DNA of 64,000 nucleotides from Schizochytrium sp. TIO01 (taxonomy: Eukaryota > Sar > Bigyra > Thraustochytrida > Thraustochytriidae), in the NCBI GenBank assembly GCA_004764695.1, contig SMSO01000032.1, forward strand, positions 7,708,668 through 7,772,667. The letters run 5' to 3'. Below are positions 24,105 to 43,184 of the stretch, piece by piece (position 1 is the first letter of the stretch; each line of letters starts with the position of its first letter). The notes below the pieces were generated by a model. The model worked only from the letters and a program-made list of their open reading frames with translations. It had not been told where the DNA came from and ran no database searches. Made by a program: the position numbers and the translations under genes.

Positions 24105-24618
24105 ATGATCTACGACGTCAACTCTCCTCTGTAAGTGATCAAGTGTTTTCTGCCCGACTACTATAACATGTGAAGGCTCTAGTTCACGTCGCCGCATACT
24201 AGGAATCTAGTCTCTTCCTCTCTCTCTCTCTCTACCGCTCTCCCATCTCATTCGGTGTCTGAGCTTTTTCAGATGAACAAGTGGATTCCCTCATCTGGCC
24301 CAGAATAAGCTGAGGTATTCGTCTGTGTCGTTGTATATTATTGTAATGCATACGATTTTGAAACAGGTGAAACTCTCGAGTAAACAGGGTGATCGCATCA
24401 GAGCAACTTCCTGCACAGAAAACTGACTTTTCCTTGAACTCGTGCTTGATGATATTTATATATACTTGCATTAACCTATCTCCCAACACAGCTACCAGTC
24501 CTACATGGTCTTCAAGAAGGTCTCCGCTTCTAACTACAGCGCAGCTAACGCTTCTATGGGTTCTAACGCAGGCGGCGCCAAGGCTGGTGTCCTCAACCCA
24601 GGAAGTGTAGGGTGTTAG
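24105..24618 (+). CDS. Two-exon gene for a 50-residue protein, unknown function
   Basis: Exon 1 runs from ATG 24105 to 24130. An intron of 361 bp follows (24131-24491; GTAAGT at the donor, a TC-rich tract, ACACAG at the acceptor). Exon 2 runs from 24492 to the TAG at 24616-24618. The join completes a CTC codon. The protein starts MIYDVNSPLYQSYMVFKK and continues with a Ser/Asn/Ala/Gly-rich half ending NPGSVGC. Evidence for a gene: exact splice signals in frame, and exon 2 codons (TAC, GTC, TTC, AAG, GCT, AAC, GGC) with the same strong bias as COPB1, which suggests high expression; the other frames of exon 2 use rare codons. No signal peptide or membrane segment; no family recognised. The 3' end lies 296 bp from the convergent ankyrin gene. 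An alternative end by further splicing after 24600 cannot be excluded. Confidence 0.62.
24218..24232 (+). repeat. TC dinucleotide tract inside intron
   Basis: Short (TC)n run within the proposed intron 24131-24491. Confidence 0.8.
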
Positions 24619-29801: not shown

Positions 29802-32800
29802 TTAGTCATCCAGCTGAGTAAGCAAGGCAACTCCGCGCTCGATCCAGAAGCCTTGATCCATTTCGCTAGGGATTCTCAGAAACATGAGAAAATTCGATGA
29901 GTGACCCGTCGTAGCAAGAACACCTCGACGCTCTGATGTTTTGTATACTGGGCAGTTGTAGTGAGGAGGAGGCTTGATTTCGTCCTGAGGCATGGGCTTA
30001 AGCCAGACCACAGGCGCATCAGAAAATAATTGCTTTGGGTGCGGATCAGCGAGTTGCTCAGTTGTCCTATCCCACCGAGCACCATCAAAAAATAGGCCAT
30101 CCACGTAGGCACCTTCGGTAGACTCTGGACCACGCTGGTATTTAGTTTTGGGCATAACTTCAAAATCAAAATTGACAGAGTCGATTGCGATTTGATTCTT
30201 ACGGGCATAGTTTTGCATGCACCCTGTCAAAAAAGCTTGCGTGAAGTAAAACCCACTTATCCAAAAGACTGCTGGCGGTTCATGCTCTAACCAGCTGCCA
30301 AGCATCTCAAGACGACGAAGAAGGTCATTTACATATCCTCCGAGAGGCTTAAGAGATGGATAAGACTTTCCAGCCCATAGTCCAGGAACCAGACCATAGA
30401 ACATTGAGTTTCCAACTCGCTCAAGTTCAGCACTCATTACCATCTCACCTCGTACAGCTTTGCACAAGTTGACAAGAGACGGTCGAATTACACTTGTCAA
30501 GCGGTTGTAACGAACAAGCTCCTGCTGTAAAACAGTATTTAAGGATTCATCCCATCGCACAGGAAAACGAACTTGAGCAAGCTCTAAGTTGAATGCCTCT
30601 GGGAGGCGCTTTAGAATATCTTGTGCCACTTCTTCCATGACTTCATCAGGAGACTTGGAACCCGATGAATTTGTGTCAGCTTGAGTTAAAAGAATTGATG
30701 TAAAAAGAGCATTAGTTTCTTTGCGATCCTTTGTGATAGTCGCATTTGCATGAAGACCAAACACCTCTGGCTCTGCAGTAAGCGGAAATTTTTCAATATG
30801 CTCAATGAAGTCGTCTCGATTGGTACACTTAGCAGGATCTGGCATACGATAGTCCCCGCTTTCTGATATAGCATAGTTTGGCTGAAGAACATCGGATCTG
30901 TAAAAGCGACCCAGGATGACGTGTAGGCAACGGCGATCTTTATCATCAGTGACACGCCCACCGTAATTACATTCAGCTGCAGTATAGTGAAGTGCCTTGT
31001 ACGGCACTTCCTCAAATTCTTGAATAAAGAAGGCCAGCTGCGCAGCACTAATGCTAAGATCTGCATCAGTAAACTCGTACGGAATATTCCATCCCATGGG
31101 TCCAAAGAGACGTCGTTCTTGCACTAGAGCATGGAAAATGGCTAGACCAAAGAGCAAGGTATGGAAGTTAGCTTCCTTATCAGGTGAAACACTGCTTTCA
31201 AAAAAGGACGGGTCAGCAATTGGATCTGATGAGTATGATCCAATTAAATTTGCACGAAGACCTTTAGGAGGCTCATTTGTCATCTTCACACCGTTCTGTA
31301 AAACTGATACTGGGAAATCCTTTGAGGGATAGGTGGTACACCACATGCGAAATTCGGGCTTCGTGTTTTCCATAGTTATTAACTCGCAAATCCTTTCGAA
31401 TGCAGGCATCCAGCTAACAGCTAAGTGACAATTTTGCAACACGACCCAAGATCCTTCTGACTGAGCGCGCTCAATCATTCTCTCTGCAATCGGACCCTGC
31501 CCCTGTCCTAGAGAGATACTGGAGACCTGTTGCTTCATAGAATCAGCAAACTTGAGTAAGCCTGCCATAGGATCAGAACCAGGCGAAAGGATGAAAATTA
31601 AAGGGGAGAGTGCATTTGAATCGTTGTAGCAAGCTCCAAGATCAAACGGAGGCGGGTTAACGAACCGTTGGCCCATCTTGTTGATTACAAAGTCCTGAAC
31701 TGCCAAAGTAACGCGATCCGGACGGATGCACCGTAATATTAACATCCTCTGGAACGGAGTTAGTCGATCATTCTCCCACCGTTCTGGGTAAGGGAACCGA
31801 TGGGCGTTACCTGCATCATAGAGTTCCTTCCATTTCGCAGCGTCCTCTGCAAAAGTCTCTCGGAGGCCTTCAAATCCAGGCATGTCTGCTAAACGGCAGA
31901 CCTCTCCCCAAGATTTGCCAGCTAACCATTCTGGAACAGGGTTCTCGTGCGGATTGTCCATTGCAACTCCACCAGTTAGCAAAAAGTACCACTCTGACTC
32001 TTCTAATTCGTGTGCACCAAACATAAGCTTCACGGTAAGTAAGAAAGCAAACAAAAGCTTGTCTTTTTCTAGTAATGAGCGACAAATGTTGCAGTAGAGG
32101 GAATAGGTAAAGAACTCACGAAGGTTGTCCATTCTAGTATTTAGATCGTCGGATTTCTCACTGTTTCGAATACCTGCGATAAACAGATTTGAAAACCAGC
32201 TTAAAGAATACTGATACACTGGCTCAATACTGGCAAGATCTGCAATACAAAAGTAAAGCAGCTGCCCGTGATATGCTACTGGGCGGTAGCCTTGACGAAC
32301 TTCATCAATAGTCTTCTCAGTTTGTTCAGCGACTGCTTGCTTCTCCGCGATTTCATTGGAAAGCACCTTGGAGGAATTTAATGCATTAATTGCACTTTCA
32401 TCTTCTAAAATATTTCCAGAAGAGGAGGAAAGAATATGCAAAATGTTATCCTCAAGCTCTTTGAGTTTTCGCGAGTTCTCCGCGCCTTCTACAATAAGCC
32501 GTGCCTTTTCTTCAGCAAGATCGGGCCGCTCCTCAGCCACTACAGTTCCAAGTAATTGGTCTTCAAGGCCATCAGGCGTAATCATAAAGTTGACCAATGT
32601 AACCTTCACTGCAACCTCTGGAAGGTAGTGCGGGTTAGGTAGTTTGGTAGTAATGTAGAATCGAAATTCGGGACTGTATTCGACTGTGCTATCACCGAGA
32701 CGCAAACATTCAACTCCACCTTGCTTGAAAGTTTGTTTTAAGAGGAGCGGTTCCAACGCTGCGTCAAGAGTTTCTCCAACGTTTTCAAGAAGAACTGGCT

Positions 32801-35800
32801 GACCGAATTGGACTGCATTTTCAACCGTTCGAAGATAGTTTCCATCACTCAGTTTGATGACATGAAGGCCAGCTTCCTTTTCCATGTTCCTGATCCACTT
32901 GTTTGCTTGACCTTGCGGGTCGATCAATAGTGGCCAACGACGAGAATTAAAGACCACAATCCCGTTGTCGACAGAAAACGAATCGGTTGGTAAGCCATTG
33001 ACATGCCATTGACGAGTAGCAACAGGATCACCTAGAGTGGCGTTCAGTGTTACTCCCTCGGAAGCAGGAATCTTTCTCTCGTGAAGCAGAGCAGTCCACC
33101 TGGTTACCTGTTTATCCCGTAGTGCAGCGGTAAAAGGCCCGAGATAAGCTATAACTCCAGCACTTACCAAAACATCACCTGTCAGCAAGGTACATTGCTT
33201 CGCAAGATCAAGGGCACTCTGAGTCCAACGAGTCTTCTCACCACCAAGACCGTCAATGAGAGTTTTTGCGCGCTCCAACTTCTTTCCACAGAGGTCTACT
33301 TCATCTTCCAGATCTTTTTTCTTATCGCAAGCTGCCTTAAACTGTGCTTGCAAGGCTGCAAGCTCGTCTTCAACAGCCTGAAGTGCATCTTGCTTCTTCT
33401 TGAGCTCTCCCATCGTTACAGCGAGCTCGGACTCAGCCTGTGCTAATGCCTCTTTCTTCGGTGCAACAACTTTTGCTACGCGATCATACGCCTCCATAGC
33501 ACGCACCCATTTACACATACCACAGGCTGCGACAGAAGCCTTCTTCACAATTTCTGGCTCAAAGTTTGGATCGTTGACGAATTTTTTACGGATAATTTCA
33601 ATGAATTTGGGGTTGATGTTGTCTTTATCATACTCCTTCAAAGTCTGCAAGAACTTAGCATCAGCAAGCAATTTTTTACCTGGAGTCCACCAATCGTCTA
33701 CCTTCTTCGTTGGGTCGTTCGGATCTTTAGCCTTCGCGCATTTTATATTAAGCATTACACAGATGGCTTCCATTGTCAACACTACACCGCCAGGCGGGGT
33801 TTTGAAGTTCTTGACTTCGTTGATATCGGAAGGTTTGAGCGTATCGAGAGCATCTACAGCATCTTGAAGAAGTGGCATTGCAACAGCAAGATCATCCTCA
33901 CACTCCTTTTTAATTGCGCCAACTCGGTCAGCTTCGCCTTGAGCAATGGCGGCATCCTTACCGACAGACTCTTTTGTAGCCTCAACACCTGGAAGTTTTT
34001 CTTCGATCTGTTTCATAAGAGCATCTGTATCTGCTTGAGACTGTGCAAGTACGGGTTGCAAATCCGTGAGTTGTTTTTGCATGTCCGCAACTGAAGATGC
34101 TGCAAAGTCTAGTTTCTCGAGACCAATCTCATAACGGCGTTTAGCTGCTAAAACTTTATCTCGACAAGAGTTGAGAGATCCCTTGTAAGCAAGAATAAGC
34201 TCAAGGTAAGATGTTGGGGTCACGTAGTTGATGCGCCTCATACTAGATCGGAAAAATTCTGAGAGTTCCTGAATGGAGGTATGAAAGCTTTGGCACGTCA
34301 TGACAATTGAGCTCAAAATCTCCTCACGAGTGGCTTTCTCAGAGTCACCAATCGGCAAATCTGCAAGGAAACGCTCCGCAACAGCAACCAAGGCATCAGC
34401 AGGCCAAAGGCTAAACCAGTCGATGACACAACAGTTGATTAAACTTGGGTACATACGTAAGCGATCGCGGAATTCTCCTCCAATAGGACTGAAGGCAAGC
34501 ACAACATGCAACTTCTTGCGCACGCGCTGAACAAAAAACTGCCAAAGCTCTAGTGCGTTCATATCAGCAGCCTTTTTACCGTATACTTGCTTAGCGAAAG
34601 GACGCACATTCTCCAAACATTCGGCTTTTTCGTCGCTAGGAAATAGGTTCGGGATTTCACCAGAGTTAAGAAGGTTATTTATATCTTCCACAAAGCTTGG
34701 TTGCTTAATTTGGGAATCGCTGAAGAGGAATACTGCATCTCGAGGATTCAGTGCTGCAGCTCTGATGACTCGTTTTAAGTCCTCGTGCCATTCAGTCTTG
34801 TTGTAATTCTTCGAAATCTCGATTTGGATAACGTCAAAATCCGCAATAAAACCAGCTAAGCGTGTAAGTGACTGTCTTCCAGAGCCACCCACTCCTACGA
34901 GTAAGGCATTACCTCCAGGCATTGCAAGAACACGGCTGATCCGTGAAACATGTTCAATCGCAAACAGAAACAACACCAATTGCATTGGGGTCTTACTCAC
35001 AGAATTGTACTCCTCCAAGTATGTATCAAGTGTTTCTGAGAGCTTTACAACATCTTGAATCTCTTCATATAGACGCGGATCGGCGCCAGGAACCATGAAG
35101 TCTCCAAAGAATAAACGACGCATATCATCCAGAACAATATCATCCCCAAAGTTTGAACCCTCCGGACGGCTTTCTTTCAGGTGTTTGAAAATTGATGAAA
35201 AGTCCGCATTAAAATGTTTGGGTGAGAGTGTCTTTATATAACCAAGAAACCATGAACGATCTTTATCATCAATCAGGCGATCAGAAAACACTCGCATCAC
35301 CTCATGCACCCAAAGCCTTACTACGTAAGGCCTATCAACTCCCTCCGTCTGTGGGCCGACCATTGTTACACCTTGGATTACACGAGAAAAGTCGCGAAGG
35401 TTGAAAGTGTAGTGCGATTTCGCAGGAGTTGGTAAGAGTTCCTCTTTTGCTTTTGTGTAAGACTCAAGCGTAGCAGCAACAATCCCCCCTGCAAGACCAC
35501 GAATGGATTCATCAAACCCAGGCTTTCCAAAATGCCAGGTCGTAAGTGTTTGGAATATGCGAACAAGAGTTTGATCAGAGAATTCTGTAAACGTGAGAAC
35601 ATTAAAATGCCTCATCATGCGTGGTGTGATGAAGTTACGCCCACCGCCCGGAGGTCCCATTGCAGCCACCAGCAGCGTGTCGATAATGGTTCGGAAGGTC
35701 TTTTCTTTTAGATCGTACCACCCGCCATTGTCAACAAACTGGCGCAAAAGCTCAATTGGAGGCTGCGCACCATACTCCTCAACCACAGGCATGTTCAGAT

Positions 35801-38800
35801 CATCAACGAACAACATATACTTTTTCCCAACTGCAGGACCAAATACTCCCTTTCGACGACGGTCCATCCGGCCATCAACAATATCTTGAAGCTGGGCTGC
35901 GCTTGTATTGGCCGAGAAAGCGGTCATGATAGACATGTATTTTTCTCTATCTAGCTTGTTCATTAAACAGTCCACAACATATGTACTCTTTCCTGTTCCT
36001 GTTGGACCAATAACGAGCGTTGGTTTTTCATGTGTATACAACGACGTAAGGAGATAGGAGAACTGAGAAGTATTCTCCGTAGGAACTACAATAGAGCTAT
36101 ATTCAGCATCATTTGGTATCTTGAATTTGTCCAGCATATCGATCCAGCTTTTCCAGCGCTCCTCTTCAGGCAGGTAGCAGTAGTCATAGACCGAACCATC
36201 TTCAGGTATAGGAATGCCAAATTTGTGAATCTTTGGGCCATCTCCAGCTTCTTCTTCGTAGATATCTTCTTCCACCTCATCGCCTCCTGTGTCAGACGAT
36301 GATGGTTCTTGAGTTTTGTTGTTTTTCGCAGGCTCAGGATCATTTTCCTCACCTTCGTCCCCAGCATCATCCTCGTCTTCGTCTTGATCCGGGGCAGGCA
36401 GCTCTTCTTTTTTAATCGGATCAAGATTAAAGCTAGGTAATTTCCATTTTGCAGCGAGTAATCCGATCCAAATTTTCGGGTAGGATTCTTGAATGTATTT
36501 ACCCTCATGATCACTAAGCACCTGCCGAAGATATTCGCTGAAGAGGGACCGACTTGCAGCATCAATAGAAGCTCCGATTGACCAGATTAAAGAAAAGAGA
36601 AAGTACGTCTCTACCTCAACATCCGTGGCCTCACGAATTTTCGGTGTTCCATGCGGTGCATTCGGGTTTCGTAGCAACGTCTCTAAGCAGCTTTCGAGGA
36701 GGCGAATGCAACTGACGACAAGGTTTGCGTTCACTGTTGGGGCTTCCTCACGGCATCTCTTGCGGACAAAGATTATGCACGGATCTACAAGCCATTTAAA
36801 TAGAACTGTGAGAAGACGGCGTTGGCGTTTGGTAATGAAAAAGGGTGGAGCACTAGCAAAGGCATCGTCATCTTCTTCTAGAGCGGAGACTTTTTCTGCA
36901 ATATCCTGGTTGCATGTAATACGGTCAAGCCAGGAAGAAAGAAGCGGGAACCAGCCCATTCGATGAGGCTCAAAGAAAATCACACCACATCGTGAAACAG
37001 TGGCAGGTGAGGCTACCTCAAGATCCATTGGTTCAAACATCATAGACATTGTGTCTGAAAGTGCAACCATTTCACCACTCTGAAGACATAGCTTTTTGTT
37101 ATCGTCCAATACAGTGTTCATGTTTTCAATCCAGATAGCATCCACAGGGCCATCAAACATCACCCATTTGCGGTCCTTTTCCTCGCCAATTTTATTGTTT
37201 GCACAATCACGATACTTAATTGCAAGTACACCATCCGTCCACTCATGAGTGACAGGGTCGAACTGACCGTAAAGCATGCCCATAGAAATTGACTTTGGGT
37301 TTATAACAACAGCCACAACAGTTTGCCACCTGGAATCATCTGGGTGCTCTTCATTGAGTAATGTGAGAAGATCCTGCAAGCACCTCCAAGAGGAGGTCTT
37401 TCCTCCAAACGGTAAACCAACAACCATAAAACCGTGGCGCACAAGCATCATCTCATATACTTGAATTACTTTTCCATAAAAGTAATCGTCAGGCTGGAGA
37501 CCAAGACTCTTGCATGTTCGTAAGAAAGCATTTCGAAAAAGTGAACGATCTATCTCGGGAAGGACGACTCCGGGAAACAAATCGCCTACGATACCTTTAA
37601 ATAAAGGCATATCTTGAGAAAGAAACTTAGGCTCATTGACGTCAATGATTGAACGAAGCATCAAGACAGCTTCATCTGTTTCACGATTTTCTTTGAGACG
37701 TTTTTGTGCACCTGCAGCACGGAGAACTGACATCACCGCACGCATACCATAATCATAGTGTTTTTGCGAACTGAGCTGCTCACTACAGAGGCGATAAGTT
37801 GCTACAATTTTCTTTGCTAAAACTCGAGCATTGAGGTAGCCAAAACTATACAGAATAATTTCACCAATTAGCGCATAATCTGGAACCATCATAGCGCAAG
37901 GACGAAACAAAGCCTTCAAGTTATCAGGTAGCTCTGATCGACCGGCGTAACCTGGATTCATTGTAATGTATACATTACAGCCAGCTTTGAATGGTAAAGT
38001 TGTGCCCTCAAATTCCATGACATCAACTTTATCAATTTTGCCCCGTTGAATGGTAAGAATCTGTTGTGCAACTACAGACAACACTTCGAGTTCAATACGA
38101 TTGAATTCATCAAAGCATGCCCAAGCTCCACTTGCCAACAGGCCCTTAAAAAATTTACCCATGGCCAAGTAATCGAGACCATCTGAACAGTTAAAAACTA
38201 CGGTCTGTACTGCAACAGCTTTACCAAGATCCTTAGTTGTCTCTGTTTTACCTGTGCCTGCAGGTCCTTCTGGGGCACCTCCGTACAAAAGCTGCAGAGC
38301 ACCCATCAAAGTTCTGTAGCAACGATCAGTCAGAGGTGTGACAACAAGGCGTCCTGAGCAACCAAGATATTCATAGTCATACTGGCAACATGCGGTAATC
38401 ATCTTCACGTCAAGTGAGCCTGGGGTTCCAGTTGTTGCAGAGTGACTATTGTCATACCAATAGTATCGAAGCTGGGCGATCCAGTCAAAGTCAAGAGGAG
38501 AAGACATTCCAGTTTCTGCCAATTGTCCAATGGTATCTCGAGAGTGGACATCTAGAGTAACCATTGCACCGATTGCTGTTCTCATAAGCTTAGGAAGGTC
38601 ACCACGTACAAGCTGGACAATATCTTGAAGTTGTTTTTGAAGAACTTTGAAATAATCGTGTAGTCCAGCATTTCCTTTCTCACGAAGTGCCTTTTCGACT
38701 TCGAGAGTCCAAAAAGCTTGACTAACGCCAATAAGCATCTGGCCTTGCCACTCTTGTACCCATTGAATACGCTCTGTGGTCTCAGCATAGGCTTTCATAC

Positions 38801-41800
38801 ACATATCCAAGGCATATGCAACACTGCGACGCATAACCGTCTCGGCCTGCACAAGCCAGACCTCTACGTTTCCACCTGTGCTATTAGGGTTGATGACTTT
38901 ATGGTTAATTTTTTCGTAAACAAAGTCAACTCTCTCTTTCTGTGGACTCATCATTGCCTGAATATCAAGGTTTCCATCGAATACGAGCTCATTGATACCT
39001 TCAAAGCATTTTTTCAGATGCGGCTGTACACGCAAAGGATCTTTAGTTTCTGAGAGAATCTCTAGCAGTTCATCGTTTGAAAGGAAGAAAAACCGTGGAA
39101 AGTATAAACGCTTAGTCTCAAGGTAATTATTGAGACCTTTTTGAATACTATCCATTAATTCATTTGCCCGCAGCATATCAGAGAGAAGCCCAGGGCGTCT
39201 AGCTGTGATGATGACTCCTGGAAGCTCAGCTGTTTTCCCAACAGCTTCACGCCATAGATCATCCACTTCCCGGAACATTTTTGCTTCCGTTGGCATTTGT
39301 TTCATAATGTCAGGAGAACCAAAAATAGGTTCCAGGTATAGCCATGTACCCTGAAGTTGTAACCAATTATCAACAATATTTTGAAGGTCGATTAAGGTTT
39401 GCTCCCAATCCTTGATTCGTTCAATAAAAGGTTGCACGTAGCGGCTACTTCGCATCGCTTGTGCTTTAACAATGTGATCATCAAGGAGTGTTTGAACTTC
39501 GTCAACACCACCAACGATATAGGTTCCTGTGTTTCGATACGGTTTGACCACAAACTCCAGAGGCTCCCATTCCTTCTCCATCTTGTCCATGCCCTTTTCA
39601 AGAGAGTATTCTTTATTGGCACTAACGCAAGTGTCCTCAATGTCATTTGTGAATTTGTGAAGGCCGACTTCGATACACGACTCCAAGTTCACCTCACGAG
39701 AATACTTGACTGGAAGCTTCGTAATATCGGCAATAAGACCCCAGTGACGTTCTCTGAGACCAGGATTGCAAAGCAAAAGCATCAGAGGAATGTATTCGTC
39801 AAGGTAGGTTTTAGACTCATTAAACAAAACAGTTGCCGCCTTGAGAGGCTCGTCCAGTTCTTGGCGCTCAAATTCTTTCACGAGTTTTGCCATTGCTCGA
39901 CGAACATTGTCTGCATCACGATCAACTTCTTCAGCATCCAGGCTTATCAAGGGCTTACTGAGCCATGTGTTAGTCTGATCCGCAAACTGCTTTGCAGTAT
40001 CCCAAAGAATTCCGTATGGGTCCAAGGACTTCTTGAGGGCGGTAATGCGAGTCATCCACATGGGTATCGTTATCTCCTGCGCAAGAAGCTCCTCTTGCTC
40101 ACGAATACCGTCCATTTCATTCTCCGCGTCTCCAATAACCTTGCGGAGATCGTTCACGCGCTTTAAAGATCGGTCGACACCAAGAGGAGAGAGATCACCC
40201 ATGGTTTGCAGTTTAAGGCAATCCTCTTCTGCACGAGAAAGCTCGTCTGCAAACAGCTCGCGACGTCGCTCGAGTACTTGGATCCGCATTTGTTTTTGAG
40301 ACTCTTGCAGCTTTTCGCTGCGCCGTTGGGATTCCCAAACTTTCGAAGGAAATGCATATACGTTCTGCACGAGTATAGTATCCTCCTCTGACAGATGGTA
40401 ATCGTAATTAATGGCGAAATTAATGCGGGGACTGACTTCGGTCACAATTCGCTTTTCCATCTCCTTAACTCGGGTTTCACACTCCTTAGCATAAATGATG
40501 AGCGCGTGTAGCTCCTCGCTATCTTGTGGTTCCTTGACAAGCTTTTGCATCATTTCACTGTACTCTGCGCAAAGATCTTGCATTATTTGGGAGTTATCTT
40601 TTGCAACTTGAAGCTGTACGATTTCGACATACTTTTCTGCCTTCCCCCGGTAGGCACCTTTGATTGGGGTACAGTCGATCAAAAACATTGGAAATCGCTC
40701 AAAGTCTTCTACAGCGTTTTCTATGTCCCTTTGAACAGTGCGAAAGCGCATCAGTTCTGTGTTTAGCTCTTTTAGTGATGCTCGGCTCTCCATGCCAAAC
40801 TTTCGATTTTTAATTTTGAAAGCTACAGCTGTATCTTCTGACCCATCGTACAGTCCTTTAAAATTTTGAAATGACTGAGCAAGGCCCTGGCAGTCTCTGT
40901 ATCGAATCTGGACAATTTTTGCAATATCTTCTTTGATTGCAATGAGACGTTCATTATTCGAGAGCATTTCACATGGTGCAAGAAAATTTTCACCATCTAC
41001 CCGTGGAATTTTACTTGCAGATGCAACGACAGCATCGAGGACCTGATGAATGGTTAACGTCAGTTCCTCTGCAGTAGGCATAAAAGTTGGGACTCCATTG
41101 TCATCTACAGATAGTTTGATAGAGAACATAGGTGCTGGAGGAAGTCCTTCCTTAGATATGGAAGTATCGCCAAAGGCTTGGAAAAAGGTGTGTACATCAT
41201 CAAGTGAGCTGTCAATAGCACCTCGGACTTGTCGCGACATCAGCACGCATGCCGTGTCTAAGATACGTTGCCCTGCAGCGGTGATGCAAGGTGCAGACTT
41301 GGACGGGGTTGATGACGACATATTCTTCTTTGGAGAACTTGGGTTGCCACTACTACTATGTGAAGATGAAGACATTCCCTTATCAGATTCTTCCTTATGT
41401 TCAGAATTCATTTCGTCTCGCATCAACCCTTCCAAGGAGTCTGAAAGGATCTCAGAAGCGCGCTGAAGCCATTTGTCTTTAAGATGAAGCCGGACAGCCT
41501 CTGCAACACTTTCGCTGTGCTTCGCAAAAATCATGGGCTCAAAAGGAAGATGAAGACGATATTCTAAAGATCCCATCTCGACAAAAGTGCTCCGAGGGCT
41601 CATGTCAAGAACCCAGAGCTCTTGGAGTTCTTTTAAAGCTGTATCAAGTGCTAATTGAGAAACCAACTGAGTACGGGCGTTTTCTACTGCCCGATGGGAA
41701 ACACCAGTTTCTCGAAGAATGGTCCAAGAGTGACTTGTAAATTCTTGACTTGTCCAGTCATGTTGAGGGTCAAGAAGATACTTTGGATTGATTCCATATG

Positions 41801-42605
41801 CAATTTGCTTGCTTGGATTCAACAATTCATATCGAATTGAGGAGGATTTAATGCAGTTGAAGTAGTTGCTACGCATTTCACTGATCATAGTGGAAACGAA
41901 GGTTTGGCGGTCTTCGATACTTAAGAGTGAATCATGTGGCGCTTCGGGAAGCTTTTGCAGTACTTGATTTTCCCATGATTCCTTGTGTCGAGCAATCTCA
42001 CATTGTCGCCCGCAGACATCTAAATATGTAAACGAGTCCATGGCTGCTTCAAAGCACTCAGAGTTCTGACGAATTGTCTCTCGAAGATCGTCAGACTTAG
42101 AGCCTTGTCTTTCTGCAGCATCAGATGCTTTGTCATGATCAAATTGAAAATGCGAAGAAGTTAGGCCTGAGCTAAAGCTATCTACAGTGACCAATGCGGG
42201 ACTTGGTGCATCAACAGAAATAGGACTCCAATTGGCCACATTGAACCGCTTCCCACGACGTTGTGGACTGTGCGGAGATGTTGGAGCAATCGCAATTGGA
42301 TCTGAAGGTGATTTAGGCGGAGAAGGCGAGATAGCTTTGGGAGAATCCGAATCGATATTGATTGGACTTCGGAGACGAGGCTTTGTTGGGCTACGAACAC
42401 CACCCGTGGTGTCATTCTGTAATGTTCGAATAGTTAGCTTGCTTGCCTCAAGCGTGTAGTTGCAGCCAATCTTGTCACTAGGTGAGCTGTACTCTGTTTC
42501 ACTTCGATAAGTTGGGCTTTGTGTTTGACCATCGACGCTTGGCAAAGTCGGCTGGCGAAGAGGGGTCAGTCTTCGAGGACTGCGCGGTGAAGCTGATGTT
42601 TCCAT
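29802..42605 (-). CDS. Axonemal dynein heavy chain, single-headed inner-arm type (DNAH3/7/12-like)
   Basis: 4267-residue motor subunit of a flagellar inner arm, in one uninterrupted reading frame. The ATG at 42605 has A at -3 and G at +4. Residues 1-150 are Ser/Pro-rich with many SP sites and have no counterpart in the core family. The tail and linker follow, then the AAA+ ring: P-loops GPAGTGKT (~1446, AAA1), GLPFGGKT (~1728, AAA2), GPTGTGKST (~2198, AAA3) and GVGGSGRQS (~2568, AAA4). An acidic insert (~2061-2121, runs of D/E) lies between AAA2 and AAA3. The stalk coiled coil and microtubule-binding domain span about 2825-3120. The C-terminus has DGLFFDGARWD, VVWLKP, YKTSERRGVLATTGHSSNF and WIERGVALL, closest to human DNAH7/DNAH3. 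DNAH1 and DNAH6 are the alternatives; phylogeny is needed to decide. The gene shows that the organism makes motile flagella. Confidence 0.97.
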   Translation of the reverse strand: METSASPRSPRRLTPLRQPTLPSVDGQTQSPTYRSETEYSSPSDKIGCNYTLEASKLTIRTLQNDTTGGVRSPTKPRLRSPINIDSDSPKAISPSPPKSPSDPIAIAPTSPHSPQRRGKRFNVANWSPISVDAPSPALVTVDSFSSGLTSSHFQFDHDKASDAAERQGSKSDDLRETIRQNSECFEAAMDSFTYLDVCGRQCEIARHKESWENQVLQKLPEAPHDSLLSIEDRQTFVSTMISEMRSNYFNCIKSSSIRYELLNPSKQIAYGINPKYLLDPQHDWTSQEFTSHSWTILRETGVSHRAVENARTQLVSQLALDTALKELQELWVLDMSPRSTFVEMGSLEYRLHLPFEPMIFAKHSESVAEAVRLHLKDKWLQRASEILSDSLEGLMRDEMNSEHKEESDKGMSSSSHSSSGNPSSPKKNMSSSTPSKSAPCITAAGQRILDTACVLMSRQVRGAIDSSLDDVHTFFQAFGDTSISKEGLPPAPMFSIKLSVDDNGVPTFMPTAEELTLTIHQVLDAVVASASKIPRVDGENFLAPCEMLSNNERLIAIKEDIAKIVQIRYRDCQGLAQSFQNFKGLYDGSEDTAVAFKIKNRKFGMESRASLKELNTELMRFRTVQRDIENAVEDFERFPMFLIDCTPIKGAYRGKAEKYVEIVQLQVAKDNSQIMQDLCAEYSEMMQKLVKEPQDSEELHALIIYAKECETRVKEMEKRIVTEVSPRINFAINYDYHLSEEDTILVQNVYAFPSKVWESQRRSEKLQESQKQMRIQVLERRRELFADELSRAEEDCLKLQTMGDLSPLGVDRSLKRVNDLRKVIGDAENEMDGIREQEELLAQEITIPMWMTRITALKKSLDPYGILWDTAKQFADQTNTWLSKPLISLDAEEVDRDADNVRRAMAKLVKEFERQELDEPLKAATVLFNESKTYLDEYIPLMLLLCNPGLRERHWGLIADITKLPVKYSREVNLESCIEVGLHKFTNDIEDTCVSANKEYSLEKGMDKMEKEWEPLEFVVKPYRNTGTYIVGGVDEVQTLLDDHIVKAQAMRSSRYVQPFIERIKDWEQTLIDLQNIVDNWLQLQGTWLYLEPIFGSPDIMKQMPTEAKMFREVDDLWREAVGKTAELPGVIITARRPGLLSDMLRANELMDSIQKGLNNYLETKRLYFPRFFFLSNDELLEILSETKDPLRVQPHLKKCFEGINELVFDGNLDIQAMMSPQKERVDFVYEKINHKVINPNSTGGNVEVWLVQAETVMRRSVAYALDMCMKAYAETTERIQWVQEWQGQMLIGVSQAFWTLEVEKALREKGNAGLHDYFKVLQKQLQDIVQLVRGDLPKLMRTAIGAMVTLDVHSRDTIGQLAETGMSSPLDFDWIAQLRYYWYDNSHSATTGTPGSLDVKMITACCQYDYEYLGCSGRLVVTPLTDRCYRTLMGALQLLYGGAPEGPAGTGKTETTKDLGKAVAVQTVVFNCSDGLDYLAMGKFFKGLLASGAWACFDEFNRIELEVLSVVAQQILTIQRGKIDKVDVMEFEGTTLPFKAGCNVYITMNPGYAGRSELPDNLKALFRPCAMMVPDYALIGEIILYSFGYLNARVLAKKIVATYRLCSEQLSSQKHYDYGMRAVMSVLRAAGAQKRLKENRETDEAVLMLRSIIDVNEPKFLSQDMPLFKGIVGDLFPGVVLPEIDRSLFRNAFLRTCKSLGLQPDDYFYGKVIQVYEMMLVRHGFMVVGLPFGGKTSSWRCLQDLLTLLNEEHPDDSRWQTVVAVVINPKSISMGMLYGQFDPVTHEWTDGVLAIKYRDCANNKIGEEKDRKWVMFDGPVDAIWIENMNTVLDDNKKLCLQSGEMVALSDTMSMMFEPMDLEVASPATVSRCGVIFFEPHRMGWFPLLSSWLDRITCNQDIAEKVSALEEDDDAFASAPPFFITKRQRRLLTVLFKWLVDPCIIFVRKRCREEAPTVNANLVVSCIRLLESCLETLLRNPNAPHGTPKIREATDVEVETYFLFSLIWSIGASIDAASRSLFSEYLRQVLSDHEGKYIQESYPKIWIGLLAAKWKLPSFNLDPIKKEELPAPDQDEDEDDAGDEGEENDPEPAKNNKTQEPSSSDTGGDEVEEDIYEEEAGDGPKIHKFGIPIPEDGSVYDYCYLPEEERWKSWIDMLDKFKIPNDAEYSSIVVPTENTSQFSYLLTSLYTHEKPTLVIGPTGTGKSTYVVDCLMNKLDREKYMSIMTAFSANTSAAQLQDIVDGRMDRRRKGVFGPAVGKKYMLFVDDLNMPVVEEYGAQPPIELLRQFVDNGGWYDLKEKTFRTIIDTLLVAAMGPPGGGRNFITPRMMRHFNVLTFTEFSDQTLVRIFQTLTTWHFGKPGFDESIRGLAGGIVAATLESYTKAKEELLPTPAKSHYTFNLRDFSRVIQGVTMVGPQTEGVDRPYVVRLWVHEVMRVFSDRLIDDKDRSWFLGYIKTLSPKHFNADFSSIFKHLKESRPEGSNFGDDIVLDDMRRLFFGDFMVPGADPRLYEEIQDVVKLSETLDTYLEEYNSVSKTPMQLVLFLFAIEHVSRISRVLAMPGGNALLVGVGGSGRQSLTRLAGFIADFDVIQIEISKNYNKTEWHEDLKRVIRAAALNPRDAVFLFSDSQIKQPSFVEDINNLLNSGEIPNLFPSDEKAECLENVRPFAKQVYGKKAADMNALELWQFFVQRVRKKLHVVLAFSPIGGEFRDRLRMYPSLINCCVIDWFSLWPADALVAVAERFLADLPIGDSEKATREEILSSIVMTCQSFHTSIQELSEFFRSSMRRINYVTPTSYLELILAYKGSLNSCRDKVLAAKRRYEIGLEKLDFAASSVADMQKQLTDLQPVLAQSQADTDALMKQIEEKLPGVEATKESVGKDAAIAQGEADRVGAIKKECEDDLAVAMPLLQDAVDALDTLKPSDINEVKNFKTPPGGVVLTMEAICVMLNIKCAKAKDPNDPTKKVDDWWTPGKKLLADAKFLQTLKEYDKDNINPKFIEIIRKKFVNDPNFEPEIVKKASVAACGMCKWVRAMEAYDRVAKVVAPKKEALAQAESELAVTMGELKKKQDALQAVEDELAALQAQFKAACDKKKDLEDEVDLCGKKLERAKTLIDGLGGEKTRWTQSALDLAKQCTLLTGDVLVSAGVIAYLGPFTAALRDKQVTRWTALLHERKIPASEGVTLNATLGDPVATRQWHVNGLPTDSFSVDNGIVVFNSRRWPLLIDPQGQANKWIRNMEKEAGLHVIKLSDGNYLRTVENAVQFGQPVLLENVGETLDAALEPLLLKQTFKQGGVECLRLGDSTVEYSPEFRFYITTKLPNPHYLPEVAVKVTLVNFMITPDGLEDQLLGTVVAEERPDLAEEKARLIVEGAENSRKLKELEDNILHILSSSSGNILEDESAINALNSSKVLSNEIAEKQAVAEQTEKTIDEVRQGYRPVAYHGQLLYFCIADLASIEPVYQYSLSWFSNLFIAGIRNSEKSDDLNTRMDNLREFFTYSLYCNICRSLLEKDKLLFAFLLTVKLMFGAHELEESEWYFLLTGGVAMDNPHENPVPEWLAGKSWGEVCRLADMPGFEGLRETFAEDAAKWKELYDAGNAHRFPYPERWENDRLTPFQRMLILRCIRPDRVTLAVQDFVINKMGQRFVNPPPFDLGACYNDSNALSPLIFILSPGSDPMAGLLKFADSMKQQVSSISLGQGQGPIAERMIERAQSEGSWVVLQNCHLAVSWMPAFERICELITMENTKPEFRMWCTTYPSKDFPVSVLQNGVKMTNEPPKGLRANLIGSYSSDPIADPSFFESSVSPDKEANFHTLLFGLAIFHALVQERRLFGPMGWNIPYEFTDADLSISAAQLAFFIQEFEEVPYKALHYTAAECNYGGRVTDDKDRRCLHVILGRFYRSDVLQPNYAISESGDYRMPDPAKCTNRDDFIEHIEKFPLTAEPEVFGLHANATITKDRKETNALFTSILLTQADTNSSGSKSPDEVMEEVAQDILKRLPEAFNLELAQVRFPVRWDESLNTVLQQELVRYNRLTSVIRPSLVNLCKAVRGEMVMSAELERVGNSMFYGLVPGLWAGKSYPSLKPLGGYVNDLLRRLEMLGSWLEHEPPAVFWISGFYFTQAFLTGCMQNYARKNQIAIDSVNFDFEVMPKTKYQRGPESTEGAYVDGLFFDGARWDRTTEQLADPHPKQLFSDAPVVWLKPMPQDEIKPPPHYNCPVYKTSERRGVLATTGHSSNFLMFLRIPSEMDQGFWIERGVALLTQLDD

Positions 42606-43184
42606 TTTTAGATACTGAGCAACACCTCTGCAGGAAAACTGCAAAGATCAAACTATAATGTACTCACTTTGTCTCTGAGGTTCTTTGTAAGATAGATGAA
42701 TTCAGAGCTGGGGTTTGGTCTACTAGTACTGTGAAAGTCTAACACTCTAGCTTTCACAACCTGCCTTGACCAACAATGCGAGTTGAAAACGCAGAACCTG
42801 TAGGCTGCAAAAGACAAGGCCCTCAGACAGGAGAAATCACGAAGCTTGAAGTTTAAGCGCTGCTGCCACCCCCTTTTCAATCCTACAATCCTCTACTCTT
42901 CGATTCTTCTAGATCTTGCCCGACCCCTTTCGGTCGGGCACGATTCACCAAAAGGATATACAACACAAGATCGTACAGCTCGCAAACGACAAACGACTTG
43001 TCCAGATAGAGGGAATAAGCAGGCTTGGAGACTTGGCAAACAAACACAAAGAAATAAACAAGACTATTGCAATGCAGCCTCTTGTATTGTTTTCCCTTGT
43101 AGATCAACACCATGTCTATGCAAAAGCGACAATAGTAGTGCACACGTGTAATGACATTGCAAGAATGAGCCGTTGAGCGGTCAT

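Follow-up and report, generated by a model that had tools for sequence, protein, structure and literature searches.

Organization of the locus

The window analyzed here, a 64-kb stretch from a 64 Mb assembly of 37 contigs, contains genes for coatomer beta, a protein kinase, an ankyrin-repeat protein, sideroflexin and a TMEM260-like protein, neighbors of a small candidate gene with the following features.

24105..24130, plus strand: exon 1, 26 nt, ATG at 24105, coding for MIYDVNSP and the two first bases of the L9 codon, ending in phase 2
24131..24491, plus strand: intron, 361 bp, GTAAGT...ACACAG, with the donor GTAAGT at 24131-24136
24471..24475, plus strand: putative branch site, TTAAC, its A 17 nt before the last intron base, similar in placement to TTTAACC in RPS26 intron 1
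24492..24618, plus strand: exon 2, remaining part of the 50-residue protein, TAG at 24616-24618, last six codons atypical

A sequence-only reading had proposed this two-exon model (ATG, 26-nt exon, GTAAGT, 361-bp intron, ACACAG, TAG), and its coordinates proved exact on re-reading. After joining 24105..24130 and 24492..24618, the frame was open for 50 codons and gave the product MIYDVNSPLYQSYMVFKKVSASNYSAANASMGSNAGGAKAGVLNPGSVGC; the surroundings of the acceptor read cATTAACCtatctcccaacacAG. With the intron retained, a stop was reached at once (MIYDVNSPL-TAA). As the 14-residue N-terminal motif is complete only without the 361-bp intron, protein production requires splicing. The TC tract noticed earlier in the intron is present (about 24211-24243), but it lies ~250 nt away from the acceptor, whose polypyrimidine tract it is not. 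The bases leading into the start codon (gccaagATG) are similar to AGCAA(A/G)ATG, which is seen at tubulin and HSP70 genes of the same genome. An Rfam scan of the window gave no match, and a scan for bacterial promoters and terminators was uninformative, as one would expect of eukaryotic DNA.

The RPS26 gene of the same genome begins with a 35-nt exon 1 ending in phase 2, followed by a 799-nt intron that ends in TTTAACCAATCTACAG (TTTAACC...CTACAG), and its second intron begins with GTAAGTGA. The likeness to the candidate, which concerns architecture only, lies in the very short phase-2 first exon, the long first intron with its TTTAACC...CAG end (ATTAACC...ACACAG in the candidate) and the candidate donor, which is the donor hexamer of RPS26 intron 2. 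In contrast, the proteins are unrelated, and the two RPS26 introns differ in their donors (GTGCGT for the first, GTAAGT for the second).

The predicted spliced product matches the wound-inducible basic protein family

PF08186 (wound-inducible basic protein), a family of small proteins of about 47 aa, was the sole Pfam family matched by the spliced product, with 25 bits (E 2.6e-5), a score that lies at the family's curated cut-off (also 25 bits) and not well above it. Residues 1-23 aligned to positions 1-20 of the 44-position profile; residues 1-22 alone reached 25.2 bits, and the exon 2 product alone gave no PF08186 match. From the initiator Met on, the first 14 residues (MIYDVNSPLYQSYM) agree with the N-terminus of the plant family, and the MIYDVNSPL[FY] signature of PF08186 likewise starts at this Met. 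In its longer form, MIYDVNSPL followed by [F/Y]xS[F/Y], the signature is reassembled over the predicted splice junction. Ten of the 14 N-terminal residues are identical to those of the plant wound-induced basic protein. This plant sequence itself scored 79 bits against PF08186 over its full length, and this end-to-end match confirmed it as a member of the family. Beyond profile position 20, the candidate showed no PF08186 alignment, so that the homology claim is limited to the N-terminal half; the K/E-rich hydrophilic tail seen in the plant member is not known to be obligatory. The 50-aa product is basic (pI 8.93), with no signal peptide evident by eye.

The product had been regarded as a candidate lineage-specific protein, with no recognizable family, a view that the PF08186 match of the joined product overturns. 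The accompanying prediction that single-frame searches would miss the gene was borne out: searching the whole genome with PF08186 in all six frames returned zero matches, as expected if the intron cuts the motif. Overall, the gene is very probably real and a member of a known, uncharacterized family of wound-induced basic proteins, as judged from the sequence.

The plant PF08186 proteins of Phaseolus vulgaris, rice (Os12t0405700), barley (HORVU1Hr1G086850) and quinoa (XP_021736943.1) resemble the candidate in their length of ~50 residues, their basic character and their MIYDVNSPL[F/Y]xS[F/Y] start. By contrast, the candidate tail is rich in G/A/S and carries few charges (GRAVY 0.07 vs -1.39 for the plant wound-induced basic protein), the tails do not align, and the host, probably a unicellular heterotroph, would have no tissue that could be wounded. 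The literature found on the PF08186 protein consisted of plant transcriptome, mapping or proteomic lists, none of which gave a mechanism. In raw quinoa, a 5.3-kDa mass-spectrometry peak was tentatively assigned to the wound-induced basic protein (PMC11203106). Up-regulation of the protein was reported for nanoparticle-stressed bean (PMC8065513), and in rice it is a candidate within an interval for blight resistance, with an effect that the authors call purely speculative (PMC7034821). Our literature search found neither a protist member nor a functional study of the family, and a search of solved structures found none for the candidate or the plant protein.

Specificity of the predicted splice junction

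We scored all open ATG/GT/AG combinations on both strands of the 64-kb window (first exon ≤53 nt, intron 60-600 nt) by BLOSUM62 against the first 18 residues of the plant protein. The predicted join ranked first among 97,497 open combinations, with a score of 58, and the runners-up used the same exon 1; the best joins in two shuffled windows scored 33 and 37. The predicted acceptor also ranked first among the 53 AG acceptors within 1 kb of the donor. Decoy products, which kept exon 1 or the first eight residues with other continuations, reached 13.9-16.9 bits to PF08186, and therefore about 8-11 bits stem from residues past the junction. These bits are independent support for the exact acceptor.

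A degenerate DNA pattern for MIYDVNSPL occurred exactly once in the 64 Mb genome, and at one more place with one mismatch; the reversed control pattern had 0 occurrences in the same genome. The locus is single copy in the genome. The one-mismatch place lies at L027 1501-1560 (G000:C4:1148849), where AAGATCTATGATGTCAATTCTCCCTTC encodes KIYDVNSPF right after a long TTGAA pentanucleotide array. It has no start codon and no Pfam match in its own frame, and it was set aside as a relic or a chance occurrence. The pattern scan of prokaryote genomes gave one match, MIYDVNRPL within a bacterial ORF for a coiled-coil protein, which was also rejected (about the chance expectation by our own estimate). 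Tblastn-type and pattern scans of viral contigs found no relative.

Codon usage and alternative explanations

Codon adaptation (CAI) was computed with the HSP70, eEF1A and tubulin genes of the same genome as reference set. The whole joined frame scored 0.44, compared with 0.32 for COPB1 and 0.11-0.22 for the other window genes. The claim that exon 2 uses favored codons holds for codons 1-44, whose CAI of 0.66 compares with 0.69-0.86 for HSP70, tubulin and eEF1A and with 0.06-0.18 when exon 2 is read in its five other frames. It does not hold for the final six codons (CCA GGA AGT GTA GGG TGT, 24598-24615), with a CAI of 0.025. Among all stop-free stretches of 41 codons in the window, the one with the strongest bias starts at 24475, in the same frame as exon 2. 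This codon bias therefore points to a protein that is probably well expressed, and a real two-exon gene for such a small protein is supported by the sequence.

Since codons 1-44 are biased and the last six are not, the C-terminus of the 50-residue model is uncertain. A real gene with a mis-modelled C-terminus is possible though somewhat doubtful: the frame could be interrupted by another intron past about codon 44, or it could have shifted recently, or through an indel in the assembly, near AACCCAGGAAGTGTAG. The abrupt fall in CAI would be unusual, as 10-codon stretches at or below 0.11 were absent from seven highly expressed genes and made up 2% of such stretches in COPB1. However, six codons are a small sample and the tails of disordered proteins drift, and our search for a third exon found nothing convincing: no donor/acceptor pair gave a strongly biased one (best 0.36, with poor donors). 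In the mis-modelled case, the true protein would differ after LN, which is compatible with the PF08186 assignment for residues 1-44.

It is far less probable, indeed very improbable, that an open splice combination resembles the plant N-terminus by accident. The Pfam score is merely at threshold, KIYDVNSPF also occurs at C4:1148849 without a recognizable gene, and MIYDVNRPL lies inside a bacterial protein; against this, the match starts exactly at an ATG in good start context and runs on across a consensus intron, in the frame with the strongest codon bias of all 41-codon open stretches in the window. Horizontal acquisition from a plant or green alga, instead of vertical descent, appears unlikely. 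The papers found naming the family do concern land plants, but protist reports may be absent merely since tiny split genes go unannotated, and long residence in the genome is indicated by a native codon bias, an intron of native type and a tail that has diverged.

Proposed function and origin

The product would be a cytosolic, mostly disordered basic microprotein. An N-terminal Met-Ile is a substrate of NatC-type acetylation, and this end is probably kept and acetylated, giving Ac-MIYDVNSPLYQSYMVFK. Comparison of two sequences and one profile suggests that the N-terminus is the part kept by selection. In the likeliest mechanism, this N-terminus, fixed at residue 1, would be a short linear motif by which the protein docks on a conserved partner, and the K/G/A/S tail would serve as a spacer free to vary; taken by itself, this docking mechanism, proposed from conservation, is doubtful. 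The short first exon and 5' intron resemble those of the abundant housekeeping RPS26, and by this analogy a single-celled organism would more likely express the gene constitutively at a high level than strictly upon wounding.

We tentatively propose, as a real possibility, that the "plant wound" protein is a housekeeping microprotein of ancient eukaryotic origin, shared by stramenopiles and plants, which has mostly escaped notice because its only conserved motif is split by an early intron, and that it docks through its N-terminus on a partner that is itself widely conserved. The earlier notion of an orphan microprotein gives way to homology from land plants to a probable thraustochytrid; no new taxonomic range is claimed. 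Were the family so ancient, both its name and the wound-response view would be misleading, and a single-celled organism would offer a simple system for finding the partner and function. The locus is also a concrete case of an early motif-splitting intron that hides a small family from six-frame and ORF-based annotation.

Other observations in the window and genome

The minus strand of the window carries a single-exon open frame of 4280 codons (29802-42644). Elsewhere in the genome, we observed a PfaA-type polyunsaturated fatty acid synthase, whose neighboring matches sum to 1157 bits (cut-off 1010). Its presence agrees with a thraustochytrid host, as support short of proof. The synthase is divided between two open frames (L037 and L038; 1031 and 2172 aa) within 9 kb at G000:C4:608161-617209, which may reflect a frameshift, an assembly error or a true split.
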